Shown piece by piece: positions 19,558 through 51,044 of a stretch of DNA of 64,000 nt; the stretch's first letter is position 1, and each line of letters begins with the position of its first letter. A program made the position numbers and the translations under genes. The notes beneath the pieces are model-generated. The model ran no database searches. It saw only the letters and a list, made by a program, of their open reading frames with translations, and had not been told where the DNA came from. Origin of the DNA: Nocardioides sp. Kera G14 (lineage in GTDB: Bacteria; Actinomycetota; Actinomycetes; Propionibacteriales; Nocardioidaceae); the NCBI RefSeq assembly GCF_020715565.1, contig NZ_CP085839.1, positions 2,728,001-2,792,000 of the forward strand. Direction: 5' to 3'.

Positions 19558-19623
19558 TCCCAAGGCCCTGACTCGACGTCAGGAAACCCCGAACTCAAGG
19601 TCAGGAGAGCCCAGACGCGGCGG
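19558..19623 (+). repeat. 22-bp tandem mini-repeat, about three units (non-coding copy)
   Basis: Units begin at 19558 (degenerate), 19580 and 19602. The clearest unit starts CAGGAAACCCCG and continues AACTCAAGGT. The next starts CAGGAGAGCCCA. The same 22-bp unit occurs inside hrpA (22228-22293) and inside the gene at 43606-44166. Here it lies within the candidate RNA. Confidence 0.7.
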
Positions 19624-19647
19624 TGGGCGAGGGCCCTTTCGACGCAG

Positions 19648-19714
19648 ATCGGCCCCGGAACCGACGGAGATCCCCGTACACCTCCGTCGACCTCGGGGCC
19701 GATGGAGTTTTTTT
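19648..19714 (+). terminator. Intrinsic terminator, plus strand
   Basis: ATCGGCCCCG (19648-19657) pairs with CGGGGCCGAT (19694-19703), and inside it GACGGAG (19663-19669) pairs with CTCCGTC (19682-19688). Seven T follow at 19708-19714. An outer pair GGGCGAGGG/CCCTCGCCC (19625-19633 and 19716-19724) flanks it. It terminates plus-strand transcription although no plus-strand protein gene precedes it, and it lies just past the hrpA stop. Confidence 0.85.
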
Positions 19715-19731
19715 ACCCTCGCCCGCGCGGC

Positions 19732-22700
19732 CTAAACCTGTGAGTCGAGGACCTTTCGGATCCGGGCGTCGGAGACCGGTACGGCGGTGCCGAGCTGCTG
19801 TGCCCACAGCCCGACCCGCCACTCCTCGAGGAGCCAGCGGACCTCACGCAGCCTCGCCCCCGCGGGGCGTCCCTGAGGCAGTGCCGCGACGGCCTGGAGG
19901 TAGCGCTCCTGCAGGTCGGCGTACTGACCCATCAGGTCGGCGTCGCGGCGCAGCCCTGCGGCGTCGCCCAGACGCTCGCGGCGGCGGAGCATCGCCTGGA
20001 CGTACGTCGGATAGCGGCGCAGGTGCTGCCCCGCCTCGGCGATGAAGCCGCGCTCGGTGAGGCGGGCGAGCTGGGCGCGCATGTCGGTGACCGCGGGCAG
20101 TTGGTAGATGTCGACCCGGCCGGTCAGCGCTTTCTCGGCCTCGCGCTGGGCGGCGAGGGCGCGGAGCGCGTCGTCGAGTGTCGCCCGCACGTGCGCCTCC
20201 AGGTCGGTGGCGAAGGCCTTCTGCAGCGCGGCGAAGGCGTCGGCGTCGCGGACCGGTGGATGCGCGTCGACCGCCTGGCGCGCCACGGCGGCCAGGCAGT
20301 CGGCGATCACGGCGGCCGCGTCGGGATAGGGCGTCGCGGCCAGAGCGAGCTTGGCGGTCATGTCGAGCGAGTCGACGATGCGCTTGGTGAGCCGCGGATC
20401 GGTGCCGAGCATGAGCAGCCGCGCGACGCCGAGCCGGTGGCGCGCCTCGGCCTCGTCGGCGGTGCCGACCACCACGAGCCCGACCGTGCTGCCCTCGTCG
20501 TCGAGGCAGCGGTGGACGGTCACCTCGTGGCCGGCGCGCTTCTCGGTGACGGTCGGGCTCACACTGCCGAAGGTCCACGTCGTCTGGCCCGTCGCCGTCA
20601 GGCCGGCCGAGGCGGCGACCTCGTTGATCGCTCGTCGGAACTGGCCGCGCAGCGGCGCCTTGAGCGCATCGAGCTCCTTGCCCCGGGCCTGCTCCCGCCC
20701 CTTCGGATCGAGGATGCGGTACGTCGGCCGCAAGTGCTCCGGCAACGGGGCCCAGGCCTCGCGTGGTACGACGATGCCCACCGTGGAGCGGATCCACCGC
20801 TCGAGCGCATCGAGGAGCGGCTCCTCCCCCGGCGGAGTGCTGCTGAGGAACTCGCGGGCGCGGTCCGGGGCCGGCACGAGGTGGACACGGAGGTTCTTGG
20901 GCAGGCCGCGGATCAGGGTGGTGACGATCTCTTCACGGTTGCCCGGGACGTTCCACGAGAAGTCGCTGTCGTCGACCCGGTTGAGCGTCTCGACCGGGAT
21001 GTCGACGGTGAGCCCGTCCTCGGGCGAGCCCGGCTCGAAGTGGTAGTTGAGGGTGAAGGTCAGACCACCGTCGCCGGAGTCGTGCCACTCGCTCGGGAAG
21101 TCGGAGACGTCGACCTCACGTGCGATCAGTGAGGGATCGAAGTCGAGGATCGCCTTGTTCTCTTGGCGTTTCCACCAGCTATCGAAGTGCGCGCCGCTGA
21201 CGACGTCCTTGCCGACGCGGGCGTCGTAGAAGTCGAAGAGGGTGTGCTCGTCGACGACGATGTCGCGTCGCCGCGCCTTGTGCTCGAGCTCGCGCGCCTC
21301 CTCGAGGCGGCGGGCGTTGCGGCGGAGGAAGCCGTGGTTGCTCTGCCACTCCCCTTGGACGAGCGCGTGCCGGATGAAGAGCTCGCGCGCGACCTCGGGA
21401 TCGACGCGGCCGAAGTTGACCAGCCGGTCGGCGACCAGCGGGACGCCGTACAGGGTGACCTTCTCGTGCGCCATCACGGCGGCGCGACGGCGGCTCCAGT
21501 GCGGCTCGGTGTAGGAGCGCTTCACCAGGTGCGGCGCGAGGTTCTCCGCCCACTCGGGCTTGATGCTCGCGACCTGTCGCGCCCAGAGCCGACCGGTCTC
21601 GACCAGCTCGCCGGCCATCAGGAACTGCGGGTTCTTCCGGCTCTGCGACGAGCCCGGGAAGATCGCGAACCGTGTGCCCCGAGCGCCGAGGTATTCGCGT
21701 GGACCGGGCCGTTTCCCCTTGTTCTGTTGGCCCTTCGGCTTCTCGTCGCGTACGTCGAGGGCGCCGATGTGACTCAACAGGCCGGAGAGCAGCGCCTGAT
21801 GGATGCCGTCCTCGTCAGGACTGTCGGCGGGTTGGCCGAGGGTCAGGCCGATCTCCTTGCAGACCTGCCGCAGCTGGCTCTCGAACTCCTGCCACTCGCG
21901 GACGCGGAGGTAGTGCAGGTGCTCGGCCCGGCACATCCGGCGGAAGGCGGAGGAGGAGAGCTCGCGCTGCTGCTCCTTGAGGTAGCGCCACAGGTTGAGC
22001 CACGCCATGAAGTCACTGCGCTCGTGCTTGAACCGCGCGTGCGACTGGTCCGCCCTGGCCTGGCCCGCGGGATCGTCAGGCCCGGGCCGCTCCCGAGGGT
22101 CCTGCAGCGACATCGCCGCCGCGATCACGATCACCTCGCGCAGGCACCCACGGCGCTCGGCCTCCAGCACCATCCGCCCCAGCCGCGGGTCGATCGGCAG
22201 GCGGGCGAGGCGCCCACCCAACCTCGTCAGCCGAATCCGGTCTTTCCTACCGCCGAGTCGGGGGTTTCCTGCCGCCGAGTCCGGTGTTGTGCTCGTGAGG
22301 GCGCCGAGCTCCTCCAGCAGATCGACGCCGGCGGCGATGTTGCGGCGGTCGGGGGGCTCGACGAACGGGAAGTCCTCGATCGAGCCGAGCCGGAGGCTCG
22401 CCATCTGGAGGATGACGCTGGCGAGGTTGGTGCGGAGGATCTCGGGGTCGGTGAACTCCGGGCGGGCGTCGTACTCCTCCTCGGAATAGAGGCGGATGGC
22501 GATGCCTTCGGCGACGCGGCCGCACCGGCCCGAGCGCTGGTTGGCAGAGGCCTGCGAGATCGGCTCGATGGGGAGGCGCTGCACCTTGGTGCGGGCGGAG
22601 TAGCGGGAGATACGGGCGACGCCGGTGTCGATCACGTAGCGGATCCCCGGCACCGTCAGTGAGGTCTCCGCGACGTTGGTCGACAGCACGATCCGGCGAC

Positions 22701-23601
22701 CCGTGTGGGAGGAGAAGACGCGGTGCTGCTCGGCCGCGCTGAGCCGGGAGAACAGGGGGATGACTTCGAGGTTGCCCCGCCGCGGGTCGACCTTCAACGC
22801 GCTGTTGAGCGCGTCGGAGGTGTCCCTGATCTCCCGCTCGCCCGGCAGGAAGACGAGGATGTCGCCCGGCCCCTCGGCGCTGAGCTCCTTGACTGCGTCG
22901 ACGATCGCCTCGGTCTGGTCGCGTACGACGACCTCGCCCTCGTCGTCCTCCTCCGACAGCTCCATCAACGGCCGGTAGCGGATCTCCACCGGGAACGTCC
23001 GGCCGCTCACCTCGATGATCGGGGCGGGGCTGCCGTCGGGCTCGGCGAAGTGGGCCGCGAAGCGCTCCGGATCGATGGTCGCCGACGTGATGATGACCTT
23101 GAGGTCGGGCCGGCGCGGGAGCAGTTGCTTGAGGTAGCCCAGCAGGAAGTCGATGTTGAGGCTGCGCTCGTGGGCCTCGTCGATGATGAGGGTGTCGTAG
23201 CGCCGCAGGTCGCGGTCGCGCTGCATCTCGGCGAGCAGGATGCCGTCGGTCATGAGCTTCACACGGCTCGCGCGTGAGGTGCGGTCGGTGAAACGGACCT
23301 GATAGCCGACCAAGGATCCGACGCCGTCGCCGAGCCCGTCAGCGCCCAACTCCTCCGCGATGCGCTCGGCGACGGAGCGCGCGGCGATGCGTCGGGGCTG
23401 GGTGTGGCCGATCAGTGTGCCGTCGGCGCCACCCAGGCCGCGACCGAGCTCGAGGCAGATCTTCGGCAGCTGGGTGGTCTTGCCCGACCCGGTCTCACCG
23501 GCGACGATCACGACCTGGTGATCGCGGATCGCCTCGGCGATCTCGTCACGTACCGCGCTGACCGGCAGATCCGGATAGGTGATCTGCAACGGCTCGGACA
23601 T
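19732..23601 (-). CDS. hrpA: ATP-dependent RNA helicase HrpA (DEAH family)
   Basis: This is a 1289-residue DEAH-box helicase. Domain 1 has Walker A GETGSGKTT (35-43), DEAH at 141-144 and SAT at 173-175. Domain 2 has the FLPGEREIRD, LSTNVAETSLTVPGIRYVIDTG and QRSGRCGRV motifs. Then come the helicase-associated and OB domains and the long C-terminal DUF3418-type region. Length and order match bacterial HrpA, implicated in mRNA and ribosome metabolism. About residues 436-457 (TPDSAAGNPRLGG part) are an insertion made by three 22-bp repeat units, between LLEELGAL and LTRLGGRLARLP, where other HrpA proteins are continuous. The insert is 66 bp, so the frame is kept. TAGACT lies 9 nt before the ATG. 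Confidence 0.95.
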   Translation of the reverse strand: MSEPLQITYPDLPVSAVRDEIAEAIRDHQVVIVAGETGSGKTTQLPKICLELGRGLGGADGTLIGHTQPRRIAARSVAERIAEELGADGLGDGVGSLVGYQVRFTDRTSRASRVKLMTDGILLAEMQRDRDLRRYDTLIIDEAHERSLNIDFLLGYLKQLLPRRPDLKVIITSATIDPERFAAHFAEPDGSPAPIIEVSGRTFPVEIRYRPLMELSEEDDEGEVVVRDQTEAIVDAVKELSAEGPGDILVFLPGEREIRDTSDALNSALKVDPRRGNLEVIPLFSRLSAAEQHRVFSSHTGRRIVLSTNVAETSLTVPGIRYVIDTGVARISRYSARTKVQRLPIEPISQASANQRSGRCGRVAEGIAIRLYSEEEYDARPEFTDPEILRTNLASVILQMASLRLGSIEDFPFVEPPDRRNIAAGVDLLEELGALTSTTPDSAAGNPRLGGRKDRIRLTRLGGRLARLPIDPRLGRMVLEAERRGCLREVIVIAAAMSLQDPRERPGPDDPAGQARADQSHARFKHERSDFMAWLNLWRYLKEQQRELSSSAFRRMCRAEHLHYLRVREWQEFESQLRQVCKEIGLTLGQPADSPDEDGIHQALLSGLLSHIGALDVRDEKPKGQQNKGKRPGPREYLGARGTRFAIFPGSSQSRKNPQFLMAGELVETGRLWARQVASIKPEWAENLAPHLVKRSYTEPHWSRRRAAVMAHEKVTLYGVPLVADRLVNFGRVDPEVARELFIRHALVQGEWQSNHGFLRRNARRLEEARELEHKARRRDIVVDEHTLFDFYDARVGKDVVSGAHFDSWWKRQENKAILDFDPSLIAREVDVSDFPSEWHDSGDGGLTFTLNYHFEPGSPEDGLTVDIPVETLNRVDDSDFSWNVPGNREEIVTTLIRGLPKNLRVHLVPAPDRAREFLSSTPPGEEPLLDALERWIRSTVGIVVPREAWAPLPEHLRPTYRILDPKGREQARGKELDALKAPLRGQFRRAINEVAASAGLTATGQTTWTFGSVSPTVTEKRAGHEVTVHRCLDDEGSTVGLVVVGTADEAEARHRLGVARLLMLGTDPRLTKRIVDSLDMTAKLALAATPYPDAAAVIADCLAAVARQAVDAHPPVRDADAFAALQKAFATDLEAHVRATLDDALRALAAQREAEKALTGRVDIYQLPAVTDMRAQLARLTERGFIAEAGQHLRRYPTYVQAMLRRRERLGDAAGLRRDADLMGQYADLQERYLQAVAALPQGRPAGARLREVRWLLEEWRVGLWAQQLGTAVPVSDARIRKVLDSQV
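22228..22293 (-). repeat. 22-bp mini-repeat, three tandem units inserted in frame in hrpA
   Basis: Units are 22228-22249, 22250-22271 and 22272-22293. In coding orientation the middle unit is CAGGAAACCCCC followed by GACTCGGCGG. Three units make 66 bp, exactly 22 codons, and add a Pro/Gly/Asp-rich insert (TPDSAAGNPRLGG plus flanks) to the helicase. Confidence 0.8.
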
Positions 23602-23637
23602 GACCGGCCAAGTCTAGGCGGACCGTCCAGCGGATAA

Positions 23638-23689
23638 CTGCTGGTGAACCGGCCGGGCGGGGAGCAGCCCCCGGCCGATCCACCAGCAG
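23638..23689 (-). terminator. Hairpin between hrpA and the upstream small membrane-protein gene
   Basis: CTGCTGGT (23638-23645) pairs with ACCAGCAG (23682-23689), and GGCCGGG (51-57) with CCCGGCC (70-76). There is no U-run on the minus side, so it is a stem-only terminator or RNA-stabilising element after the gene ending at 23713. Confidence 0.5.
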
Positions 23690-23712
23690 TCACCGGGTCG
23701 GTGGGGTGTGGG

Positions 23713-24153
23713 TCAGCTGGTCGGGGCGCTGCTCTGCGGGCTCGCGGGCGCGGACGGCGTGGTCGAGCCACCCGAACCACTGGAGCTGCCCGGCCGCTGC
23801 GGGGCACCCTGCGGCAGGCGGTTGGTCGAGCCGGGCCCGTTGAACTGGCCGTTGCTGTTCCCGAGGCCGGGCGGGTTGAACTGACGCACGGTGCCACGAT
23901 CGTGATGTCCGACGACGAACCCGACGAGGCCGCCGAAGACACCTCCGACTCCGAGTCCGACGATCAGGCAGGCGACGGCGACGATCAGCGCGTGCCACAG
24001 CTTCACGACGCGGGACTTGAACGGCTGGCGCGGGGCAGCTGTCGTCGTAGGAGCCGCCGGCGCGGCCGCAGCGGCTGGCGTCGGCTGCGGCGCCGGCTGC
24101 CAGGTCGGCGGCTCTGCCGAGGCGCCGGAGGGAGTGGGGTTCGTCTCGCTCAT
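23713..24153 (-). CDS. Pro/Ala-rich single-span membrane protein, uncharacterised
   Basis: This is a protein of about 146 residues from ATG 24153 (an upstream ATG at 24165 is possible). The N-terminal ~45 residues are Pro/Ala/Thr-rich, then a basic stop (KSRVVKLW) precedes one hydrophobic span, HALIVAVACLIVGLGVGGVF, continuing into a Gly-rich segment. The C-terminal part is Asn/Gly/Pro/Ser-rich and probably extracytoplasmic. No domain is recognised. This layout is common among small actinobacterial envelope proteins of unknown role. Confidence 0.65.
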   Translation of the reverse strand: MSETNPTPSGASAEPPTWQPAPQPTPAAAAAPAAPTTTAAPRQPFKSRVVKLWHALIVAVACLIVGLGVGGVFGGLVGFVVGHHDRGTVRQFNPPGLGNSNGQFNGPGSTNRLPQGAPQRPGSSSGSGGSTTPSAPASPQSSAPTS

Positions 24154-24235
24154 GCCCCACAGCATGCGCCGGCTCCCTGAAATCGGCGTGAGGAATTCCT
24201 ACGAGTTGTGAGCGGTCCACCACACCAGGGCGTGG

Positions 24236-24844
24236 TCAGCCGCTCAACTCGGAGGCGAGGGCGGGCAGGGCGGCGGTGATCAGCCGGAGCAGCTCGTCCC
24301 GACTCACCGCTCCCCCGTCACCTCCTCCGGAGGCCTTCCACTCCAGGACCATCTCCTCCGCCATCGAGGCCCACCCCCGCACGAGCAGCCGCGCCGTCGG
24401 GCTGTCGGGCAGGAGATTGTCCGTGTCGGAGGTGAAGATCCGGTCGGTCAGCGCCGAGCGTCCCTCGTCGTAGATCCGCCGCAGCGTCTCGTTGCCGCTC
24501 CGGGCGCCCGCGACCAGTGAGAGGTAGCCCTCGTAGTGCTCATCCACATAGGACACATAGGCATCGATCGACGTGAGCAGCCGGGAGATGGCATCGCCGG
24601 AGGCGGGAGGGGCGGTGCGGGCGATCAGGTCATCGGCGGCACGGCGTACGACGGCCTCCTGGAAGCCCGCGAGCCCGCCGAAGTAGTGATAGAGCAGGCC
24701 GCGGGAGATCCCCGCGGTCTCGGCGAGGAGGTCGATCGAGATCTCGGGCAGCGACCGGCGCGAGAAGAGCCGCACGCCCAGGTCGAGGAGCTGCGAGCGC
24801 CGCTCCTCCGACGTCAGGCGGGTCCGCCCCGGTCGCTCCGTCAT
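24236..24844 (-). CDS. TetR family transcriptional regulator
   Basis: This is a ~202-residue regulator. The N-terminal helix-turn-helix is RRSQLLDLGVRLFSRR...ISIDLLAETAGISRGLLYHYFGGLAGFQEAV (residues ~15-65), and the rest is the ligand-binding/dimerisation domain. The ATG at 24844 is preceded by TAGAGT (24857-24852, minus strand) with 7 nt between, favouring a leaderless start there rather than GTG 24853. It is divergent from the monooxygenase/SDR operon and two matching operators lie between, so it most likely represses both. The ligand is probably a substrate of those enzymes. Confidence 0.9.
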   Translation of the reverse strand: MTERPGRTRLTSEERRSQLLDLGVRLFSRRSLPEISIDLLAETAGISRGLLYHYFGGLAGFQEAVVRRAADDLIARTAPPASGDAISRLLTSIDAYVSYVDEHYEGYLSLVAGARSGNETLRRIYDEGRSALTDRIFTSDTDNLLPDSPTARLLVRGWASMAEEMVLEWKASGGGDGGAVSRDELLRLITAALPALASELSG

Positions 24845-24851
24845 GTCGCAC

Positions 24852-24917
24852 ACTCTATTGAAAAATGTTCAACAACGCTATTGACGCTCATTCAATAACG
24901 CGCCTAGCCTCGAGGAC
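24852..24917. promoter_or_regulatory. Divergent promoters with two TetR-type operators
   Basis: Two 19-bp imperfect palindromes, 24856-24874 and 24879-24897, both begin TATTGA and end TTCAA(C/T)A, with centres 23 bp apart. The first touches the -10 of the TetR gene (TAGAGT, 24857-24852). The second covers the -35 candidate TTGACG (24881-24886) of the monooxygenase, whose -10 is TAGCCT (24905-24910), 7 nt before its ATG. Occupancy would block both promoters. Confidence 0.75.
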
Positions 24918-26432
24918 ATGAGCACGAACACCGACTTGGTCACCGTCGACCACCTCATCGTCGGCGCGGGCTTCGGCGGCCTGTGCGCCGCGATCAAGCT
25001 CGACGAGGACGGCGAGCGGGACTTCGTCGTGATCGAGCGTGGCAACGACGTCGGCGGCACGTGGCGCGACAACACCTACCCTGGTGCGGCCTGCGACGTC
25101 CCGAGCCAGCTCTACAGCTACTCGTTCGCGCCCAACTCCGAGTGGTCGATGAGCTTCTCCCCGCAGCCGGAGATCCACGACTACATCCGCCAGGTCGCGC
25201 GCCATTACGGCGTCCGCGACCGGATGGTCTTCAACACCACCGTCACCGGTGCTGACTGGGACGAGGCCACCCAGCGCTGGCTCGTCACCACCACCTCGGC
25301 GGAGGGACAGACGACGTACGCCGCCCGCACGTTCATCGTGGGCCCCGGGCCCCTGTCGGAGCCGAAGCTCCCTGCGATCGACGGGCTGGAGGACTTCGAG
25401 GGCGAGGTCTTCCACTCCGCCCGGTGGAACCATGACGTCGACCTGACCGGCAAGCGGGTCGCGGTCATCGGTACCGGCGCGAGCGCGATCCAGATCGTGC
25501 CGGAGATCCAGCCGGTCGCAGGACATCTGGACGTCTACCAGCGCACGGCGCCGTGGGTGATCCCGCGCAACGAGCACCGCTACTCCGGGCTGGAGAAGCT
25601 GGCGTTCCGCCGCGTCCCGGGGTTGCAGAAGGCAGCGCGCCTCGCGATCTACTGGGGTCGCGAAGCCTACGTGCCGGCGTTCGCGTGGCAGCCGAAGCTC
25701 GCTGCACCGGCCAAGCAGCTTGCGCTCCGCAACATCCGCAAGGGGATCAAGGATCCCGAGCTGCGCGCCAAGGTGACGCCGGACTACGAGATCGGCTGCA
25801 AGCGCATCCTGATCTCGAACCGCTACTACCCCGCGCTCGACGCCGACAACACCGAGCTCGTCACCGACCCCATCGCGCGAGTGACGCCGACCGGCATCGT
25901 CACGGCCGACGGGACCGAGCGCGAGATCGACGTGCTCATCGTCGCGACCGGGTTCGAGGCCACGGACATCCCGATCGCCCACCACGTGCGAGGCCGCGGC
26001 GGGGAGTCGATGGCCGACCGCTTCAAGCGCACCGGCGCGGCGGCGTACAAGGGCTCGACGGTGCCCGGCTTCCCCAACCTCTTCTTCGTCATCGGGCCCA
26101 ACACAGGTCTGGGCCACAGCTCGATGGTCTTCATCATCGAGTCGCAGGTGCAGTACCTGCGCGACGCGATCCGCACCATGCGGGTCAACGACTTCGGGAC
26201 CGTCGAGCCGACCGAGGACGCCTTCAGGGAGTGGAACGCCGTCCTGCAGAAGCAGCTCGCGCGCTCGGTCTGGTCGACCGGCGGCTGCGCCTCGTGGTAC
26301 CTCGACGAGGAGGGCCGCAACACCACGCTGTGGCCGTCCTTCACCTTCCTCTTCCGTCACCTGCTGCACACCTTCGACGTCGACAGGTACGTCGTCACCG
26401 CCCCCGCCACCAAGGAGCTCGTTTCCGCATGA
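24918..26432 (+). CDS. Flavin-containing Baeyer-Villiger-type monooxygenase
   Basis: This 504-residue NAD(P)H- and FAD-dependent monooxygenase has the FAD motif GAGFGG (16-21), the second dinucleotide motif GTGASAIQIVPEI mid-protein and the Baeyer-Villiger fingerprint FEGEVFHSARW, which fits FxGxxxHxxxW. GATGFEATD and IGPNTGLGHSS near the C-terminus also fit the class. It inserts oxygen next to a ketone, giving an ester or lactone, or oxidises heteroatoms. It is coupled (ATGA) to an SDR gene that could supply the ketone from an alcohol. Substrate unknown. Confidence 0.92.
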   Translation: MSTNTDLVTVDHLIVGAGFGGLCAAIKLDEDGERDFVVIERGNDVGGTWRDNTYPGAACDVPSQLYSYSFAPNSEWSMSFSPQPEIHDYIRQVARHYGVRDRMVFNTTVTGADWDEATQRWLVTTTSAEGQTTYAARTFIVGPGPLSEPKLPAIDGLEDFEGEVFHSARWNHDVDLTGKRVAVIGTGASAIQIVPEIQPVAGHLDVYQRTAPWVIPRNEHRYSGLEKLAFRRVPGLQKAARLAIYWGREAYVPAFAWQPKLAAPAKQLALRNIRKGIKDPELRAKVTPDYEIGCKRILISNRYYPALDADNTELVTDPIARVTPTGIVTADGTEREIDVLIVATGFEATDIPIAHHVRGRGGESMADRFKRTGAAAYKGSTVPGFPNLFFVIGPNTGLGHSSMVFIIESQVQYLRDAIRTMRVNDFGTVEPTEDAFREWNAVLQKQLARSVWSTGGCASWYLDEEGRNTTLWPSFTFLFRHLLHTFDVDRYVVTAPATKELVSA

Positions 26433-27265: not shown

Positions 27266-27314
27266 ACGCTTTACTTCCCGGCTGCGCATATCTCGCGGCG
27301 AACGGGTACTCGCC

Positions 27315-27333
27315 CCTCGACCCCTCATCGAGG
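27315..27333 (+). promoter_or_regulatory. Hairpin overlapping the pilin ribosome-binding site
   Basis: CCTCGA (27315-27320) pairs with TCGAGG (27328-27333). The right arm includes the first bases of the purine-rich Shine-Dalgarno (AGGAGAG, 27331-27337), 6 nt before the pilin ATG. It could limit pilin translation. No promoter was fixed in the 78-bp gap. Confidence 0.4.
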
Positions 27334-27343
27334 AGAGAAACCC

Positions 27344-27760: not shown

Positions 27761-27769
27761 CGATCGCCT

Positions 27770-27804
27770 GGTCCGGTCGGCGAGGTGATCTCGTCGACCG
27801 GACC
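27770..27804 (+). terminator. Hairpin after the pilin gene, likely partial terminator
   Basis: GGTCCGGTCG (27770-27779) pairs with CGACCGGACC (27795-27804), with an inner CGAG/CTCG (27781-27784, 27790-27793). No U-run follows. Its place between the major pilin and the minor-pilin genes fits attenuation or 3'-end protection that favours pilin expression. Confidence 0.55.
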
Positions 27805-27833
27805 TCGGTGTCAGACGCGCCGGAGGTGGAGGA

Positions 27834-31415: not shown

Positions 31416-31454
31416 CCCGGCGAATACCAAGGCGAGCAGCAGGGAGGAGGCGAC

Positions 31455-36486: not shown

Positions 36487-36493
36487 GGCAGCG

Positions 36494-37726
36494 ATGAGCA
36501 CGCTCGAGTTCAGCTATGAGGCGGTCACCACCAAGGGCGGATCGGCGATCAAGGGCACCATGGAGGCGCCCAGCTCCTCGGCCGTCGCGCACAAGCTCCG
36601 CAACCAGGGCCTGATCCCCCTCCGCGTGGCACCGGTCTCCCGGACCGGCCTCAACATGGAGATCAAGATCCCCGGCCTCCAGCGTGGGGTGAAGACGAAG
36701 TCGCTCGCCGTCTTCGCCCGTCAGCTCTCCACCCTGCTCGACGCGGGGCTGCCACTGCTGCGTGCACTGTCCGTCGTCACCGAGCAGACCGAGGACGAGC
36801 GGCTCAAGGAGACCCTCACCACCGTGCACGCCGACGTCGAGGGCGGCGCCTCCTTCTCCGCGGCCCTGGCCCGCCACACGCGGGTCTTCCCGCCCCTGAT
36901 GATCAACATGGTCCGCGTCAGCGAGATGGGCGGCTTCCTCGCGCGCTCGATGCGATCGATCGCCGACACCTTCGCCGGCGAGGTCGAACTGCGCCAGAAG
37001 GTGCGCGGCGCGATGACGTACCCCGTCGTAGTCGCCTGCGTCGCCGCCGTGGCCGTGATCGTGATGATGCTCTTCGTCGTGCCGGTCTTCGAGCGGATGT
37101 TCGACAGCATGGGCGCCGCCCTGCCGCTGCCCACGCGGATGCTGATCGCGGTCTCCCACAGCATGGTGTGGGTGCTGCCGCTGCTCATCGTGGCGGCCGT
37201 CGGCGGTGGCATCTGGTGGGCCCGGCACCGCTACGACGACGCCGTACGCCGCCGGATCGATCCTCTGAAGCTGCGGCTGCCGGTCTTCGGCTCGCTCAAC
37301 CAGAAGATCGCCATCTCCCGCTTCGCCCGCAACCTCTCCATGATGCTGAGCGCGGGCGTGCCCATGCTGCAGGCGCTCGCCGTGGTCGGCCAGGCCGCGA
37401 ACAACACGGTCGTCGCCGCCGCCGTCGAGGACGTCCGCTCCTCCATGTCGCGCGGCCGCTCCTTCTCCGCCCCGCTGGCCAGCCACCCCGTCTTCCCCAG
37501 CATGGTCGCCCAGATGGCCGCCGTCGGGGAGGAGTCGGGCTCGTTGGGCCAGATGATGGACTCGATCGGCGACTTCTACGACAAGGAGGTCGAGACCGCC
37601 GCCGACCAGCTCTCGGCCAGCATCGAGCCGCTGATGATCGTCGTCCTCGGCGTGGTGATCGGCGGCATGGTCATCGCGCTCTACCTGCCGATGTTCTCCC
37701 TCTACGCCAACCTCCAGAAGAGCTGA
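36494..37726 (+). CDS. pilC: Type IV pilus inner-membrane platform protein PilC
   Basis: This 410-residue GspF/PilC protein has two repeats of the T2SSF domain: FARQLSTLLDAGLPLLRALSV in the first, FARNLSMMLSAGVPMLQALAV in the second. Spans lie near YPVVVACVAAVAVIVMMLFVVPVF, MVWVLPLLIVAAVGGGIWW and PLMIVVLGVVIGGMVIALYLPMF. It couples PilB/PilT rotation to pilin insertion. It is the last gene of the cluster and is followed by a perfect long palindrome. Confidence 0.94.
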   Translation: MSTLEFSYEAVTTKGGSAIKGTMEAPSSSAVAHKLRNQGLIPLRVAPVSRTGLNMEIKIPGLQRGVKTKSLAVFARQLSTLLDAGLPLLRALSVVTEQTEDERLKETLTTVHADVEGGASFSAALARHTRVFPPLMINMVRVSEMGGFLARSMRSIADTFAGEVELRQKVRGAMTYPVVVACVAAVAVIVMMLFVVPVFERMFDSMGAALPLPTRMLIAVSHSMVWVLPLLIVAAVGGGIWWARHRYDDAVRRRIDPLKLRLPVFGSLNQKIAISRFARNLSMMLSAGVPMLQALAVVGQAANNTVVAAAVEDVRSSMSRGRSFSAPLASHPVFPSMVAQMAAVGEESGSLGQMMDSIGDFYDKEVETAADQLSASIEPLMIVVLGVVIGGMVIALYLPMFSLYANLQKS

Positions 37727-37734
37727 CCCTCCGG

Positions 37735-37778
37735 GGGTGAATGGTTCCGGCACCCCTGGGTGCCGGAACCATTCACCC
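37735..37778. repeat. Intergenic palindrome, copy 1 (perfect), bidirectional terminator candidate
   Basis: Perfect 21-bp arms, 37735-37755 and 37758-37778, are separated by two bases. The arm starts GGGTGAATGGTTCCGGC and ends ACCC. It sits between the convergent stops of pilC and the DUF559 gene. Two more copies occur at 38763 and 42171. Confidence 0.9.
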
Positions 37779-37787
37779 ACCACGCTC

Positions 37788-38711
37788 CTAAGCAGCGAGG
37801 GGGACCCCAAGCCGCTTCAGATCCCGCGCAATCACCTCGGGTGTGTCGCGCAGCTCCCGGGACGTGCAGCGGATGATCACCCGTCCGTCCGCGCTGAGGG
37901 CGCGCTGACGGGCGAGGTCGTCCTCCCACTGCTCGACCTCCATGTGGAAGGCGCCGTCGACCTCGAGGACCAGAATCCGCCCGTCCGACAGCGGCCATTC
38001 ACAGTCAGTGAAGCGGACCCGGCCATCGGCGTCCCGCCGCTTCACCTGGCGAAGCGGCTCGGTGATCCCGAATTTCTTGCAGAGACGCGCAACGTCGAGC
38101 TCCGACACTGACTGGATCCCGCCGCCGAACTCCTCCAAGGCCCGGCGCATCACCGGCGCACGGCGGATCCGCCCGAGTGCTTCGAGCTCCGTCAGCAGCT
38201 CGGGCGCAGTCGCGAGCCGTTGCTGGATCGTCGCAGCCAGGATTCCGAGGGCGGATCGCTCGCTCCGCTCCTCGGCCGCGAAGAGCAGCACCGCCGCGCG
38301 CGGTCGACAGGTGGGCACGTCGATCTCGGTCGACTGGAGGTTGGGCAGGTCGCGTTTGGAGCGGACGAACCGATAGCCCTCGAGCCGTCGCGGCAAGTTG
38401 CGCGAGTACGGCACCAACACCGTGATCACGTCCCTGTCCCAATTGCGGAGGCCACCCAGCGTGGCGGCATGGACTCCGGCGATCAGTGACTCCTCCCCGC
38501 CGTGCAGCACGCCGAGCCAGAGCCGCTGTTCGTGGGTCAGCTCACCGGTGAATGTGGCGATGACCTTGGGGCCAGCGAACTGCCACTTCTCGGAGCGAAC
38601 GCGATGGAGGACAGCGTGCGGGGCGAGCCCAGCCTGCGTCAGCTGGCGTCGGGTGATCAGCCCGCCCTGTGCCTTCGCGATGCTCCGCCACGTCTCAGAG
38701 GCCTTCTCCAT
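37788..38711 (-). CDS. AbiEi-like antitoxin domain plus DUF559 endonuclease-like domain protein
   Basis: This is a 307-residue protein from ATG 38711. The N-terminal winged-helix part (GGLITRRQLTQAGLAPHAVLHRVRSEKW, then WLGVLHGGEESLIAGVHAATLGGL) is typical of the AbiEi-type antitoxin N-terminal family. The C-terminal ~100 residues (ILVLEVDGAFHMEVEQWEDDLARQRAL) resemble DUF559/Vsr-like PD-(D/E)XK nucleases, with the E-x-D pair kept. Such fusions are common single genes in actinobacteria. No toxin is adjacent, so a toxin-antitoxin role is not supported. Function unknown. Confidence 0.8.
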   Translation of the reverse strand: MEKASETWRSIAKAQGGLITRRQLTQAGLAPHAVLHRVRSEKWQFAGPKVIATFTGELTHEQRLWLGVLHGGEESLIAGVHAATLGGLRNWDRDVITVLVPYSRNLPRRLEGYRFVRSKRDLPNLQSTEIDVPTCRPRAAVLLFAAEERSERSALGILAATIQQRLATAPELLTELEALGRIRRAPVMRRALEEFGGGIQSVSELDVARLCKKFGITEPLRQVKRRDADGRVRFTDCEWPLSDGRILVLEVDGAFHMEVEQWEDDLARQRALSADGRVIIRCTSRELRDTPEVIARDLKRLGVPLAA

Positions 38712-38762
38712 GGCCGAAAGGGTGCATGAATCTTCGGATTCGAGCTGACGGCCATCCACAGG

Positions 38763-38820
38763 CCCGCTTGGGTGAATGGTTCCGGCAGCTATGGGTGCCG
38801 GAACCATTCACCCAAGCGGG
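38763..38820. repeat. Intergenic palindrome, copy 2 (25-bp arms)
   Basis: Perfect arms, 38763-38787 and 38796-38820, have an 8-nt loop. The core GGGTGAATGGTTCCGGCA is identical to copy 1, extended outward by CCCGCTT/AAGCGGG. It lies between the start region of the DUF559 gene and the stop of the FUSC gene, both on the minus strand, so here it would act as the FUSC-gene terminator. Confidence 0.9.
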
Positions 38821-38822
38821 GG

Positions 38823-39926
38823 TCAGCGCAGGGTCGGGAGGGCGTCGGTCGCCTCGAACTGCCCCATGCCGGTCATCTGGAGCAGGTCGACGGTGACGGC
38901 TCGGATCTGCAGGAGCACACCCTCGGCGTTGATCACCTCGGTGCGGCCGACCTCTGCGGTGTCCTGGCCGATCGCGAGGAGCTCGTCACGGACACCCTCG
39001 GGCATCCGGTTCTCGGCGAACTCCTGCGCCACATGCCGGGTCGCGACGGCGAGGCGGTCGGCGAGCTCCGCATACGCCTCCGGGACCGGCTGCCCCCGAT
39101 AGGCCGCGACGGCGACCTGACGCACCAGGACCCGGGTCGAGCGCAGCGCACGGTCGAGCGGCTCGACCATCTCACTCATCGCCCGGACGTGGCCGCGGTG
39201 TCGCAGCCGGAAGGGTGAGGAGGCCACGACCGCCATGCCCTCGTCGGCCGCCGCGTGCAGCTCACGGACCAGCGGGTCGGTGGAGCGCGCGTCCTTCAAC
39301 ACGGCCATGCCGTGCACCGCGTCCGCATCCCGCATCACGTCCGCAGCCGCCGTGAGCAGCGTCGCCATCTTCCGTACGACGACAGCCGCCTGTTCCCGGG
39401 GACGCCGCAACGGTGCCGCCGGGACGATCGTGGCCGCCACGAGAGCCACCGCTCCACCGACGAGCGCGTCGGTCCAGCGGGTCCAGGCGGTGCCGGAGCC
39501 GGGCACCATCGCGGTCACGAAGATGCCCTGCACCGCCGCCTGGTTGACGAAGAGCTGACCGCCGTCGGCGAAGAGCGCGATCGACATCCCCAGCGCGACG
39601 ATCAGCGTGATCTGCCACGCGCCGGCGCCGAGCCAGGCGACCAGCAGGTCACCGAGCAGCACCCCGAGCGCGACACCCAGAGTGACCTCCGCGACCCGGC
39701 GGAGGCGTTGGCCGTAGGACGTGCCGAGCGAGACCACTGCGGCCACCGCCGCGAAGACCGGTGCCTTGTGCTGCAACAGCTCGTGCGCGACGAGCCACGC
39801 CACGCCGGCCGCGACGGCACACTGCGCCACCTGCCACCGGCGGGCCCGCCAGCGCGCGACTGCCCGCCGCCACCGCGGACCGATTGTTGCCCGCCGGGCC
39901 CTTGGGACGACTTTCGATGCGCTCAT
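38823..39926 (-). CDS. FUSC/aromatic acid exporter family membrane protein
   Basis: This is a 367-residue protein. The N-terminal half has about six hydrophobic spans (CAVAAGVAWLVAHELL, APVFAAVAAVVSLGTSYGQRLRRVAEVTLGVALGVLLGDLL, ITLIVALGMSIALFA, VQGIFVTAMVPGSGTAWTRWTDALVGGAVALVAATIV) typical of FUSC/ArAE proteins. The C-terminal half is helical and cytoplasmic. These proteins export aromatic acids or affect the envelope. Its start overlaps the DNA methyltransferase stop by 4 bp. Confidence 0.85.
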   Translation of the reverse strand: MSASKVVPRARRATIGPRWRRAVARWRARRWQVAQCAVAAGVAWLVAHELLQHKAPVFAAVAAVVSLGTSYGQRLRRVAEVTLGVALGVLLGDLLVAWLGAGAWQITLIVALGMSIALFADGGQLFVNQAAVQGIFVTAMVPGSGTAWTRWTDALVGGAVALVAATIVPAAPLRRPREQAAVVVRKMATLLTAAADVMRDADAVHGMAVLKDARSTDPLVRELHAAADEGMAVVASSPFRLRHRGHVRAMSEMVEPLDRALRSTRVLVRQVAVAAYRGQPVPEAYAELADRLAVATRHVAQEFAENRMPEGVRDELLAIGQDTAEVGRTEVINAEGVLLQIRAVTVDLLQMTGMGQFEATDALPTLR

Positions 39927-41098
39927 GTCACTCCGTCCCCGGCATCACCAATGGGTCCGCAGAACCGCTCCTCCAGTCCGCCACCGATCGTCGCGTCGAC
40001 CGCCCGGAGACGGGTGCGCGTGATGTCGGCGACGGTGGCGAGTCCGGCGGTCGCGGCGCGAGAGCCCGCCCGCACCGGCACCCCGACATCCACCGAGACG
40101 CAGGTCCGCGTGCCGCCGTCGGTGGCGTTGGCCAGCGCGACCGCATGGCCCGTCGTCCCCGAGCCGGCGAAGAAGTCCAGCACCCGGCAGTCGCTCGGCA
40201 TGGTGTCGAGCAACCGAAGGATCAACCCGGTCGGCTTCGGTGTCTCGAAGATGTGACCGCACATTGCCTTGAGCTCCGCCACGGCCGAGTCCGTCGACCC
40301 CACTTCCGACGCAAGCCAGATGGTGCGCATCTTCTTGCGGCGCGGACCACCGCCATGGGCGGTCTCCAGCCAGTCCTTCTGGAAGACGTCCACCCGCTCA
40401 CCGAGCACTCCGGTGATCCGACGACAGACCAGATCCTCGGCGCGCGCCGAGATCAACGGAGCCGACCAGCGCCACACGGCCGGTGCACCATCACCGAAGA
40501 CCGGCTTGATCTCGACCGCTCCCTCGAACGGCTCCACCGAGACCCGCCCGGAATCAGGCGAGCCCCAGATCGCGAAGTGCAACGTCGGCGCGGAGATCGG
40601 GTTGAAGCGCTTGTTGGTGTTGCGGAGCGGGAGGTGCCGATAGCGCCGATCGCCTTGCAGATAAGGGAAATCAGCCTCATCCACCAAGGAGGCCGACGAC
40701 GCCTCCAGCGCACACACCGAGGCCGAGCGAGCGAAGACCAGGAGATATTCATGCGACGTCGCGAAGCCCCGCCCGAGCTGGCGGCCCTTGGGGTTGAGGT
40801 TCACCACGACTTGGGCGAGGAAGTTCCCGCGACCGAAGACCTCGTCCATCAGCAGCCGCAGCGAGGCCTGCTCGTTGTCGTCGATCGACACCGCGATCGC
40901 CCCCGACTCCGCGAGTACGCGACGCGCCTCGAGGAGGCGAGGACGCATCATCCCGACCCAGTCGGAGTGGCGGTCGACGTACGCGAAGCCGTTGCCGGTG
41001 TTGTAGGGCGGGTCGATGTAGATCAGGTCGAACGAGCCGTCGGAAAAACCGCTCAACACGGCGAGGTTGTCACCCTCGATGAACGTGTTGGTCTGCAC
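39923..41098 (-). CDS. Site-specific DNA methyltransferase, beta class, orphan
   Basis: This 391-residue methyltransferase has catalytic motif IV DPPYNT (29-34) before the AdoMet motif I DFFAGSGTTGHA (308-319), the order of beta-class N6-adenine/N4-cytosine enzymes such as type III Mod. The target region between them contains ATSHEYLLVF and LRNTNKRFNP. It is shorter than most type III Mod subunits and has no Res or other endonuclease gene beside it. The likely product is N6-methyladenine in a specific site, with an epigenetic rather than restriction role. Coupled to the FUSC gene. Confidence 0.9.
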   Translation of the reverse strand: MQTNTFIEGDNLAVLSGFSDGSFDLIYIDPPYNTGNGFAYVDRHSDWVGMMRPRLLEARRVLAESGAIAVSIDDNEQASLRLLMDEVFGRGNFLAQVVVNLNPKGRQLGRGFATSHEYLLVFARSASVCALEASSASLVDEADFPYLQGDRRYRHLPLRNTNKRFNPISAPTLHFAIWGSPDSGRVSVEPFEGAVEIKPVFGDGAPAVWRWSAPLISARAEDLVCRRITGVLGERVDVFQKDWLETAHGGGPRRKKMRTIWLASEVGSTDSAVAELKAMCGHIFETPKPTGLILRLLDTMPSDCRVLDFFAGSGTTGHAVALANATDGGTRTCVSVDVGVPVRAGSRAATAGLATVADITRTRLRAVDATIGGGLEERFCGPIGDAGDGVT

Positions 41099-41123
41099 AC
41101 GACGACCCTAATCGGGCAGGCGC

Positions 41124-41579
41124 CTACTCCGGCGGCGGACCCGCGACAACGGCGACGGTGGTCGTCGGGGTCGTGCAGCCCGACGCATCGGGCGAGGGCG
41201 AGGCCTGGACCACGACGCCGTCGAAGGAGTGGAAGACGACAGCGTCGGTCGGTGCGCCGCAGCCGACCGAGACGATCGAGGCGAAGAGGTCCTGGCCGGC
41301 CGCTGGCTTGGCCGACGCGAAGGCCGCCGAGAGCTTGGCCTCGAGTGGGCCCGTGAACTGCGCGGCGTATTCGTCGCGCGAGGCCGGCGTCTGCAGCCAG
41401 GTCAGGGCCGAGGCCGCCGTACCGCCGGCGCCCTTGGCCGAGACCAGGTCCAGGACCTTGTAGGACGTCGCCGCGGAATCGTCCTGCGAGCCGCCGGAGC
41501 CCGAGCCGGAGGAGCCGCACGCCCCGACCGAGAGCACGAGGGGCAGGGTGATCAGGGCCAGGAAACGACGGTGTTTCAT
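41124..41579 (-). CDS. Uncharacterised small lipoprotein
   Basis: This is a 151-residue secreted lipoprotein: signal MKHRRFLALITLPLVLSVGAC with lipidated Cys21, a Gly/Ser linker, then a small domain with a Cys pair (SVGCGAP, SGCTTP) that could form a disulfide. No family is recognised. It is divergent from the mug-like gene. Confidence 0.7.
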   Translation of the reverse strand: MKHRRFLALITLPLVLSVGACGSSGSGSGGSQDDSAATSYKVLDLVSAKGAGGTAASALTWLQTPASRDEYAAQFTGPLEAKLSAAFASAKPAAGQDLFASIVSVGCGAPTDAVVFHSFDGVVVQASPSPDASGCTTPTTTVAVVAGPPPE

Positions 41580-41585
41580 AGTCCC

Positions 41586-42170
41586 GTGACCCTAGCCCGG
41601 ACCTTCACCAGAGCTGAACTGGATAAGTTCCGAGACGCCGAGGTGCCCGACCTGATCGGTCCCGGTCTCAAGCTGCTCTTCGTCGGGATCAACCCGGGCC
41701 TGTGGACCGCGGCGACGCAGACCCACTTCGCGCACCCGGGCAACCGCTTCTACCCCGCGCTGCGGATGGCCGGGATCATCTCGCGCGACATCCCGTCCAC
41801 CGGCATGACGGACGCGGATCGCGAGCACCTGATCGAGCGCGGCATCGGGATCAGCAACGTCGTCCACCGCGCGACCGCTCGGGCGGATGAGCTCACCCGC
41901 GAGGAGTACGTCGACGGCGGCGCGCGGCTGCAGGAGCTGGTCCGCCGGATCGAGGTCCCGGTGGTCGCGATCGCGGGGATCGGCGCCTACCGCTCGGCGT
42001 TCCGGCTGCCCACGGCACTGCCCGGCCTGCAGCCTCCGGGCGTCACCGAGGAGTGGGGCGGCGCCGAGATCTGGGTCGTGCCGAACCCCAGCGGCCTCAA
42101 CGCCCACGAGACGGTCGCCACGTTGGCGGCGAAGTACGCAGAGCCGGCGCGCGCGGCGGGCATCCTCTAG
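41586..42170 (+). CDS. mug: Mismatch-specific uracil/thymine DNA glycosylase (Mug)
   Basis: This 194-residue protein of the Mug/TDG family has the catalytic loop LFVGINPGLWTAATQTHFAHPGNRFYPAL, with Asn in GINPG as in Mug, and the second motif VVPNPSGLNAH that inserts into the mismatch. It removes uracil, ethenocytosine or thymine from mismatches with guanine. The GTG at 41586 fits the family N-terminus; upstream frame sequence is antisense to the lipoprotein gene. Confidence 0.92.
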   Translation: MTLARTFTRAELDKFRDAEVPDLIGPGLKLLFVGINPGLWTAATQTHFAHPGNRFYPALRMAGIISRDIPSTGMTDADREHLIERGIGISNVVHRATARADELTREEYVDGGARLQELVRRIEVPVVAIAGIGAYRSAFRLPTALPGLQPPGVTEEWGGAEIWVVPNPSGLNAHETVATLAAKYAEPARAAGIL

Positions 42171-42224
42171 CCCGAGGGTGCATGGTTCCGGCACCCAGAG
42201 GTGCCGGAAGCATTCACCCGCGGG
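42171..42224. repeat. Intergenic palindrome, copy 3 (diverged)
   Basis: Arms around 42176-42195 and 42200-42219 match copies 1 and 2 except for two positions, plus an outer CCCG/CGGG. The TGA of the enoyl-CoA hydratase gene (42216-42214) lies inside the right arm. It separates convergent stops, as copy 1 does. Confidence 0.85.
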
Positions 42225-43017
42225 AGGGGAAGGCCGGCTTCTCCTTGGCCAGGAACGCGCGCACGCCCTCGTTGAAGTCGGGGCCGGTGTAGATCTCGCG
42301 CAGGGCGGCGTCCTCGTCCTCCGGCGCACCCTCGAACTGGTCCACCAGCCGCGCGAGCTGGGTCTTGGTGTGGCCGATCGTCACGCCCGACATCACCTGC
42401 ACCGAGGCGATGATCGAGGCAACCTCCTCCTCGACAGCCGGCCCGACATAGGCCAGCGCACCCACCGCATAGGCACGGTCCGCACCCACCAGCCGGGCCG
42501 CGAGGAGCATCTCGCGCGTGAGGGCCTCGCCGAAGATCGCGGCGCAGCGGTAGAGCACGCCCGAGGAGAGCGCGTTGCCCAGCGTCCGACCGATCGGGTA
42601 CCCGAACCGCGAGGACGGCGTCGCGAGGCGCAGGTCGCAGTGCGTCGCGACGGCGAGACCGCCACCGACGCAGACACCGTCGATGACCGCGATCGAGACC
42701 TGAGGCAGCCGCTGGATCTTCGCAAAGAGTGCCTGGAGCCAGCCCTCGTACTCCACCGCATCCCGAGACAGGAAGTCCGAGATCTGGTTCCCGGCGGCGA
42801 AGGCGCGCCCACCGGCTCCGCGCAGCACCAGCACCTTGACGGACTCGTCGGCCGCGAGCGAGTCGCACAGGTCGTGCAGCCCCTGGTACATCGCGAAGCT
42901 GAACGCGTTCATCCGCGCCGGCGCGTTGAACGTCACCGTCACCACGCCGTCGGCGCGCTCGATGAGCAGCTCGTCGGTCACCTCGGCCACCTCAGGACTC
43001 CCAGACAGATCGGTCAC
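42214..43017 (-). CDS. Enoyl-CoA hydratase/isomerase family protein
   Basis: This 267-residue crotonase-fold protein has VTVTFNAPARMNAFSFAMY, VLRGAGGRAFAAGNQISDF (first oxyanion-hole strand), VAVIDGVCVGGGLAVATHCDLRLA (second oxyanion hole) and RFGYPIGRTLGNAL. The usual catalytic Glu positions of true enoyl-CoA hydratase are not clearly present, so an isomerase or other crotonase activity is possible. Its start overlaps the RibD-like reductase stop by 4 bp. Confidence 0.88.
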   Translation of the reverse strand: MTDLSGSPEVAEVTDELLIERADGVVTVTFNAPARMNAFSFAMYQGLHDLCDSLAADESVKVLVLRGAGGRAFAAGNQISDFLSRDAVEYEGWLQALFAKIQRLPQVSIAVIDGVCVGGGLAVATHCDLRLATPSSRFGYPIGRTLGNALSSGVLYRCAAIFGEALTREMLLAARLVGADRAYAVGALAYVGPAVEEEVASIIASVQVMSGVTIGHTKTQLARLVDQFEGAPEDEDAALREIYTGPDFNEGVRAFLAKEKPAFPSRG

Positions 43018-43613
43018 GGACGTGAGACTAGCCAGCGCGAGATCAACGTCGAGTCGACGTCCACCAGCGCATTCAGCTCCATCCGTACGTCGACCGGCTG
43101 GCCGGCCACGATCCGCGGGGCCTCCCCCGCCACGATCATCGGTGTGAAGGTCAGGCAGAGCTCATCGACGAGGCCGGCCCGCAACATCGAGCCCAGCAGG
43201 GTCGGTCCGCCCTCACAGAGCAGTCGCGTGAGCCCCTCTGCCCGCAGCCCCTCGACCATCCCCCGCAGAGCATCGAAGTCACCGCCGGGCACCAGCCGGA
43301 CCCCCGGACCGTCCACCAGGGTCGGAGGTAGCTCCCGGCCCACGACGATGAGCGGCTTGCCCGCCGGGTGGTAGCCCTCGGCCCGAGCCGTGCCAGCGCC
43401 GACGATGATCGCGTCGGCGCCCGCCCGCAGTTCGTGGAAGACGGCCTGGTCGGCCGGGTTGTTGATCGAGCCCGCTCGTCCATCAGACCCGGCGGCGGCT
43501 CCGTCGAGCGAGGAGACCATGTTGACCCGCAGCCACGGACCGTCGGGCCAGTCCCACGACGCCTCCCCCACCAGAGCCCGGATCCCCGAGAGAGCGGAAA
43601 GAGCGTCACTCAT
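43014..43613 (-). CDS. RibD C-terminal-like pyrimidine/dihydrofolate reductase family protein
   Basis: This is a 199-residue reductase-domain protein with PWLRVNMVSSLDGAAAG, DQAVFHELRAGADAIIVGAGTARAEGY, a phosphate-binding LLCEGGPTLLGSMLRAGLVDELCLTFTP and an NADPH-site IVVGREL. These are the motifs of the riboflavin-specific reductase domain of RibD and of stand-alone paralogues. No deaminase domain is present. Its role may be in flavin or pterin chemistry; folP lies two genes upstream in the same run. Confidence 0.85.
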   Translation of the reverse strand: MSDALSALSGIRALVGEASWDWPDGPWLRVNMVSSLDGAAAGSDGRAGSINNPADQAVFHELRAGADAIIVGAGTARAEGYHPAGKPLIVVGRELPPTLVDGPGVRLVPGGDFDALRGMVEGLRAEGLTRLLCEGGPTLLGSMLRAGLVDELCLTFTPMIVAGEAPRIVAGQPVDVRMELNALVDVDSTLISRWLVSRP

Positions 43614-44166
43614 CGTCGATCTCCCATCGCATCACCCAGTACTTCACGCCGTACGGATCGTCGTCGTAGTCGACCGACACCAACCGCGCCCCCTTCGCCA
43701 CCGGACCGGGGTCGGTCTCGACCGGCGCGAAGTCCGCCGGCCTCGGGCCGCACAGCAGGTCGGCCAGCTCGGGAAGCGCGGAGACATCCGCCCACAGCTC
43801 CTCGGCCAGCGCCACGTCGATCCGCCGCAGCTCCGACGGCGCCACCGTCAGCGCCTCACGCAGCCAGTCGTCGAACCCATGGGACCGCTCGTCCAGGTGC
43901 CCCGGCGCCTTCTCACTCCGCGTCGCCGACCCGTTCGCCACGACGACCACCCCGCCGAGTTCGGGGTCTCCTGCCACCGAATCCGGAGTTTCCTGCGCCT
44001 CGAGCAGGCCGGCCACGACGCCGTGCGAGTCACCCACCACGCGCGCACCCGAGCCGACCCACGCCAGCGCCGCGACGACAGCAGCCCGCAGGTCAGCCAC
44101 GGGATCCACCAAGGAAGCGAATTCAGCCTTCAGCGCCAGCACCCCCGGCACGAGCACGACTCTCAT
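43606..44166 (-). CDS. Uncharacterised protein, possibly extradiol-dioxygenase-like, with repeat insertion
   Basis: This 186-residue protein from ATG 44166 overlaps folP by 4 bp. MRVVLVPGVLALKAEFASLVDPVADLRAA and GARVVGDSHGVVAGLL weakly resemble the LigB-like class III extradiol dioxygenase fold found near nucleic-acid or folate genes in actinobacteria, but metal ligands cannot be confirmed. Residues ~57-72 (ETPDSVAGDPELGG) are encoded by two 22-bp mini-repeat units, the same element that interrupts hrpA. The 3' end overlaps the next gene by 8 bp. Confidence 0.6.
   Translation of the reverse strand: MRVVLVPGVLALKAEFASLVDPVADLRAAVVAALAWVGSGARVVGDSHGVVAGLLEAQETPDSVAGDPELGGVVVVANGSATRSEKAPGHLDERSHGFDDWLREALTVAPSELRRIDVALAEELWADVSALPELADLLCGPRPADFAPVETDPGPVAKGARLVSVDYDDDPYGVKYWVMRWEIDDE
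43952..43995 (-). repeat. 22-bp mini-repeat, two units inside a coding sequence
   Basis: Units 43952-43973 and 43974-43995. In coding orientation they read CAGGAAACTCCG + GATTCGGTGG and CAGGAGACCCCG + AACTCGGCGG. They encode ETPDSVAGDPELGG, nearly the same peptide as the hrpA insertion. Confidence 0.8.
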
Positions 44167-49996: not shown

Positions 49997-50003
49997 CGAG
50001 GCC

Positions 50004-51044
<1,041 letters not shown>

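Follow-up and report, generated by a model that had tools for sequence, protein, structure and literature searches.

A 22-bp tandem repeat dispersed through a Nocardioides genome and its probable partnership with an AbiEi-DUF559 protein

How does one and the same 22-bp unit come to stand in frame in two unrelated proteins and once more downstream of one of their genes? The question is raised by a stretch of 64,000 nucleotides from Nocardioides sp. Kera G14 (contig NZ_CP085839.1, positions 2,728,001 to 2,792,000), referred to here as the window. A preliminary description of this DNA had located the unit at three places, and all three hold up by coordinates and by counts in the window and across the genome (Table 1). 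The unit (consensus CAGGAAASCCCGGAYTCGGCGG) is 22 bp long, tandem and devoid of GTAG; as had been stated, it is not palindromic, although two arrays in inverted orientation often make up the element in relatives. Two of the unit counts needed correction. The three units ascribed to hrpA are two strong ones and a partial third, which scores below our weight-matrix list, and the roughly three degenerate units at 19558-19623 reduce to two, the first stretch (19558-19579) being too degenerate for the same list. The two units of the second coding array are in frame as described, within a gene whose full span is given in Table 1, and the coding arrays do add a near-identical peptide to both proteins (TPDSAAGNPRLGG and TPDSVAGDPELGG). 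A Pfam search with this second host gene returned no family at E ≤ 0.001, and the candidate RNA suggested for 19558-19623 found no Rfam match in the window at gathering thresholds. The array at 19.6 kb adjoins a long GC-rich hairpin (19650-19714) followed by a run of seven T on the plus strand, which looks like an intrinsic terminator. Elsewhere in the window, the gene around the single degenerate unit is an in-frame fusion of a dTDP-sugar epimerase (RmlC) domain with an RmlD domain, and positions 52634-53019 hold two imperfect tandem blocks with periods of 15, 30, 42 and 60, perhaps Lys/Ala-rich coding repeats.

Table 1. Repeat units and their host genes in the window
Feature	Position	Strand	Remarks
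22-bp array in hrpA	22228-22293	-	In frame (sense); strong units 22228-22271, partial third unit to 22293
22-bp array 3' of hrpA, intergenic	19580-19601, 19602-19623	+	Two units, antisense to hrpA
Array of two 22-bp units	43952-43995	-	In frame, sense, inside gene 43606-44289
Single degenerate unit	49942-49963	+	Antisense within RmlC-RmlD fusion gene 48587-50146 (-)
hrpA, ATP-dependent RNA helicase, 1289 aa	19732-23601	-	Array in its length-variable linker
Host gene of second coding array	43606-44289	-	

The unit is more frequent than chance predicts. Three pattern matches in the window stand against 0.01 expected, and seven units reach a score of at least 18 with a weight matrix built from the hits, against none in 15 simulated windows. 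Across the genome (3,469,009 bases), the consensus search that had been proposed yields 39 matches at up to three mismatches and none for the reversed pattern; at the same matrix score, the genome stretches scanned contain at least 60 units in at least 32 arrays, and 27 of 28 neighbouring unit pairs are spaced at 22 bp. Units differ from the consensus by 2.6 mismatches per 22 positions on average, which indicates that the repeat population is not young. The exact pattern gave six scattered single matches, in unrelated MAGs, in a named genome collection from which records of the own genome were possibly excluded, and none in a viral collection.

According to our reading of a codon-usage annotation, on which gene calls and array placement are based, half of the 32 arrays (16) fall within open coding frames, 12 of them in sense and 4 in antisense; another 13 are next to the 3' end of a gene and antisense to it, and three are unclear. 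Six of the 13 are situated between convergent genes, where orientation is ambiguous; the remaining seven are all antisense. Where arrays fall inside proteins, loops seem to accommodate them, and the frame is kept: apart from the array in the HrpA linker, the one in the NAD(P)H-hydrate repair enzyme falls at an 8-residue gap of the best solved relative, and that in a MenE-like ligase at gaps of 2 plus 5 residues. When 29 HrpA rows, including the own genome, are aligned at the linker, none of the 28 others carries the 22-bp unit by eye. The linker varies widely in length among species, and that of genome G018 is as long as the one studied here; the region that the insert had been said to interrupt, described as continuous in other HrpA proteins, is therefore a variable one. 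The hrpA gene of another genome (G003, L157 4106-4275) carries a 33-bp tandem repeat of other sequence, in 5.2 copies, in the same linker.

In relatives, the search that had been called for found the exact family nearly private to this genome, with no more than two matches in any of 24 same-genus genomes; it was through the two in G002 that a sister family of different consensus came to light. A two-unit skeleton with a 22-bp period has a wider reach, matching in 31 of 196 genus genomes, the own one included: 84 times in G002, 32 in the own genome (G000), 28 in G008, 18 in G170, 14 in G010, 8 each in G062 and G073, 7 in G138 and 6 in G132, with scattered single matches elsewhere. The matches in G138, still counted as the ninth array-rich genome, mostly fall in one minisatellite-like tract. 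The reversed skeleton is absent from all nine, and a mis-spaced one (20-bp period, an unplanned control) matches once in G073, in none of the other eight, and singly in 17 of the 196. As read from part of the matched places (for example, 20 of the 84 in G002), the typical element in relatives consists of an array on the minus strand, a short spacer and an array on the plus strand; it often fills the gap from stop to stop of convergent genes, and its unit sequence is species-specific. In seven relatives, 87 arrays were scored: 78 between genes and nine in coding frames, a few probably being chance pairs. Arrays between convergent genes are antisense rather than sense to the nearest stop (35 vs 8), and those between tandem genes are evenly divided (16 vs 15), as expected if an inverted pair follows one gene. 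Judged by skeleton, period and placement, the window family belongs to this genus-wide class, which the names of close homologues assign to Nocardioides.

These placements bear on two earlier suggestions. Rickettsia palindromic elements occur as in-frame copies inside unrelated proteins, and the unit had been likened to such invaders of coding sequences; the likeness extends to the half of the own-genome arrays that lie in coding frames, whereas the unit is tandem and not palindromic, the 13 arrays by 3' ends fall outside it, and in relatives the repeats are mostly intergenic. The notion of a genome-wide mobile or expanding element agrees with the many copies, the nearly private family and the sister families in relatives, while its movement is something we infer.

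A candidate partner, encoded outside the window, emerges from the DNA between inverted arrays. Three of seven such intervals read (in G010, G132 and G002) enclose one protein of about 300 aa, and the remaining four, two of them in the own genome, enclose other genes; the G010 and G132 intervals are probably one ancestral site. The protein matches Pfam DUF559, MTES_1575, AbiEi_1 and AbiEi_4, in some cases below the curated cut-off, and its structure model has fold matches to AbiEi (6y8q), I-Bth0305I (3r3p), Vsr and TnsA. As modelled, it comprises an AbiEi-type two-domain module and a Vsr/I-Bth0305I-type (homing-endonuclease-like) fold. A profile of the three founding proteins finds matches in all 30 genomes tested; the group above 340 bits is present in 8 of 9 array-rich genomes and 6 of 21 others, and in those six the gene is surrounded by arrays that belong to other dialects or have a 21-bp period (one judged by eye).

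Inverted flanks (score ≥ 17) accompany 41 of 50 family genes and none of 60 control genes, the controls consisting of 30 crp loci from within the genus and 30 loci of hrpA (11 from other genera, some partial matches). Split by profile score, the counts are 22 of 26 for the upper group (≥ 240 bits) and 19 of 24 for paralogues that score lower; the 26 include the three founders, nine of the 30 genomes had been chosen because of their arrays, and the cut-off was set after earlier runs. The other 21 genomes contribute nine upper-group genes, and 9 of 9 have inverted flanks. If tandem arrays are counted too, 24 of the 26 pass and L220 and L222 fail; about 5% of random pieces of 330 bases contain a tandem run alone by chance at the 16/22 threshold. 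The sequences show that most Nocardioides AbiEi-DUF559 genes stand between inverted arrays whose units measure ~21-22 bp. Several lower-scoring paralogues (L199, L202-L204, L207) sit between inverted tandem arrays with a period of ~31-32 bp; ~22 and ~31-32 bp correspond to about two and three helical turns, which suggests protein phasing. None of the best-ranked open-access titles and abstracts describes a DUF559 or AbiEi gene with repeats both before and after it.

Similar arrays with no such gene are dispersed, often right after stop codons, and while the unit sequence differs by species, gene arrays match the dispersed ones in several genomes. To compare them, 10-mers of gene-flank arrays were sought in dispersed arrays of the same and of other genomes. 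Recurrence in the own genome of the gene was 27% for G002 (next 5.5), 34.5 for G170 (next 8.6), 40 for the second gene of G008 (next 5.7), 60.7 for G010 (next 19.6), and 17.4 and 13.4 for G068 (next 1.7) and G006 (next 3.7), where the dispersed set is the crp site alone; G132 flanks recur at 15.6% in the dispersed arrays of G132 itself and 20.8% in those of G010. In all, a gene's flanks have their match among the dispersed arrays of its own genome in these seven of the 11 genomes compared, and seven other gene-flank sets (from G170, G008, G062 and G138) have no match in the dispersed set compared. In G073, the gene at the relA locus has a unit nearly equal to the dispersed one, as judged by eye outside the 10-mer test.

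In the Kera G14 genome, the one high-scoring AbiEi-DUF559 gene has different arrays, with a 0% 10-mer match to the dispersed family; that its arrays are the source of the window family is not supported. A gapped comparison of one of its flanks with the window unit gave p ~0.005 against shuffles, the units of G010 and G008 doing nearly as well. Two low-scoring paralogues in the same genome lack inverted flanks. The window family's own partner gene, not found in this genome, may have been lost or may have diverged. A single dispersed near-match to the unit flanking the high-scoring gene lies at G000:C1:2643265-2643286.

We regard it as probable that the 22-bp unit is a dispersed repeat of a REPtron-like system in which an AbiEi-DUF559 protein takes the place of RAYT. 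The protein, we infer, spreads the arrays by binding, cutting and movement. One AbiEi module would bind one unit, the AbiEi operators described in the literature measuring 23 bp, and with successive units about two helical turns apart, the proteins would line up on one face of the DNA. The nuclease-like domain might then nick or cut at the bound arrays, and repair or transposition-like copying could carry arrays, or the gene with its arrays, to new places. Insertions would mostly be lost unless they fell at the 3' end of a gene or, with the frame kept, in a protein linker that tolerates them, as in HrpA, and the copies in the window would be dispersed, ageing members of such a system.

An alternative, unlikely but the best of those considered, treats the AbiEi-DUF559 protein as an autoregulating DNA-binding protein, with the flanks as its operators and the dispersed arrays as targets or decoys. 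AbiEi and Rv2827c bind 23-bp inverted repeats, and one report on them has AbiEi antitoxins autoregulating through such repeats in their promoters, placed upstream only (PMC7319586). Arrays do lie upstream of most AbiEi-DUF559 genes; an array is present on the gene's 3' side too, however, and the dispersed arrays mostly follow stops or lie in coding frames rather than in promoters.

Poorer prospects attend the idea that the arrays are selected for their use to the host at gene 3' ends, as bidirectional terminators or insulators, and that the gene merely shares their slots. Their fit from stop to stop agrees with it, and three symmetric elements fold as long hairpins (z against shuffles of -9.0, -6.7 and -5.1), but two single-orientation arrays of the own genome show no such advantage over shuffles (z 1.1 and -0.02). 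The 19.6-kb window array folded together with its adjoining hairpin gave z -2.2. Against this reading, the two-unit skeleton is absent from 165 of the 196 genus genomes, though other dialects escape it; the units are also species-specific, and copies occur within genes. Passive minisatellite expansion by slippage or gene conversion, with no dedicated protein, would account for tandem and divergent units, yet we consider it very improbable given the dispersed, unlinked sites, the inverted pairs and the bracketing of a single gene family. Ordinary REPs or REPINs moved by a RAYT (Y1 HUH transposase) would likewise come in inverted, intergenic, gene-associated pairs, but this can practically be set aside, the RAYT family PF01797 having no match in any of 30 Nocardioides genomes (against 5 of 14 controls, E. 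coli among them) and the unit being no GTAG-led palindrome.

The preferred reading, a REPtron-like system, is best seen beside the systems it resembles. By one account, a REPtron is a tnpAREP (HUH) gene beside REPs, which are also dispersed, the gene being mostly single and housekeeping-like, and a REP is a palindrome of 20-50 nt led by a tetranucleotide, most often GTAG (PMC8266576). The Nocardioides repeats share with REP/BIME/REPIN-TnpAREP systems that they are short, dispersed and mainly intergenic, form inverted pairs and co-vary with a partner gene. As with REPtrons, this gene is rare on mobile DNA (no match in a phage search, and one in a plasmid search, in an 11.9-Mb record), and repeats are found both beside the partner and dispersed, in relatives though not for the window family, and with a different protein. 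They differ in the tandem 21-22-bp unit, the strong adjacency to stop codons, the several partner genes of some genomes, and a partner predicted to combine AbiEi with a Vsr-like fold; because no Y1 match exists in the 30 genomes and the unit is different, we call the system REPtron-like without making it a REPtron. A term search of the RepRanger report finds no mention of transposase, DUF or Nocardioides (PMC12306157). The AbiE type IV toxin-antitoxin system (AbiEi/Rv2827c) would have the AbiEi fold in common with our protein, but here AbiEi is fused to a nuclease-like domain and arrays lie on both sides and dispersed. The EDxHD/Vsr-like I-Bth0305I would share its EDxHD/Vsr-type catalytic fold, whereas here repeats bracket the gene and also occur without it.

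Chances seem even that this is a separate class of Actinomycetota repeat system, in which AbiEi-DUF559 nucleases maintain tandem arrays in helical phase (21-22, 31-32 and perhaps 35-37 bp) next to the 3' ends of genes and spread them; it would resemble REPIN-RAYT by convergence, with an unrelated protein and DNA chemistry and with its own dialect in each gene lineage. The proposed system would suggest that REP-like repeats entered into partnership with nucleases on more than one occasion, and would account for puzzling repeats and for inserts that keep the frame in actinobacterial genomes. The large orphan DUF559/AbiEi family (3302 homologues at E ≤ 1e-20 among 7998 candidates scored) would gain a context, and genes paired with their own array dialects make protein-DNA co-evolution directly testable.

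The genes recur at particular 3'-end slots. From printed sequences of the region 3' of crp in 30 genomes, we read the gene with arrays in G010, G132, G062, G018 and G170, repeats but no gene in G068 and G006 (the repeats match arrays at these genomes' own genes elsewhere), array- or palindrome-like DNA in G138 and G003, and one unit-like piece in the own genome; G009 has a 17-bp spacer and, by eye, no alignable target-site-duplication junction, and the rest have other neighbours or hairpins. At this site in G018 (L240), two array types follow each other, as though an element had inserted into an array already there. The other sites are named from neighbour sequence, and we take them to be marP, ctaA-ctaB, relA and mbl. 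In a protein tree of 26, the pairs sharing marP, ctaA-ctaB and, in two of three cases, relA are sisters, while crp and mbl are used by non-sister clades, with at least two changes each on well-supported branches. The five site labels require seven changes against a shuffled mean of 8.8, a number as low occurring in 15 of 200 shuffles. Tree and site pattern suggest that the gene has long been vertically inherited and that individual 3'-end slots received it on more than one occasion.

Beyond the genus, at least 53 of 198 Actinomycetota genomes, the own one included, have a match among at most 11 candidates scored in each. In other genera, inverted flanks (score ≥ 17) occur at 10 of 29 loci and 1 of 29 controls, and one further locus has 37-bp-period repeats on both sides. 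The flank from genome G283 matches 13 times in its genome, three of them at the gene, and not at all when reversed; elsewhere it has no match in three congeners and one in another genus.

Upstream of the AbiEi-DUF559 genes of Nocardioides (L181-L198, L217-L224), 55-125 bp before the start, we further noted TCCACAG-like boxes ([TC]CC[AC]CAG), which we take to resemble DnaA boxes. At least one is present in 23 of 26 genes and two in 14 of 26, compared with 4 of 30 and 0 of 30 crp controls, and paired boxes lie 27-28 bp apart.
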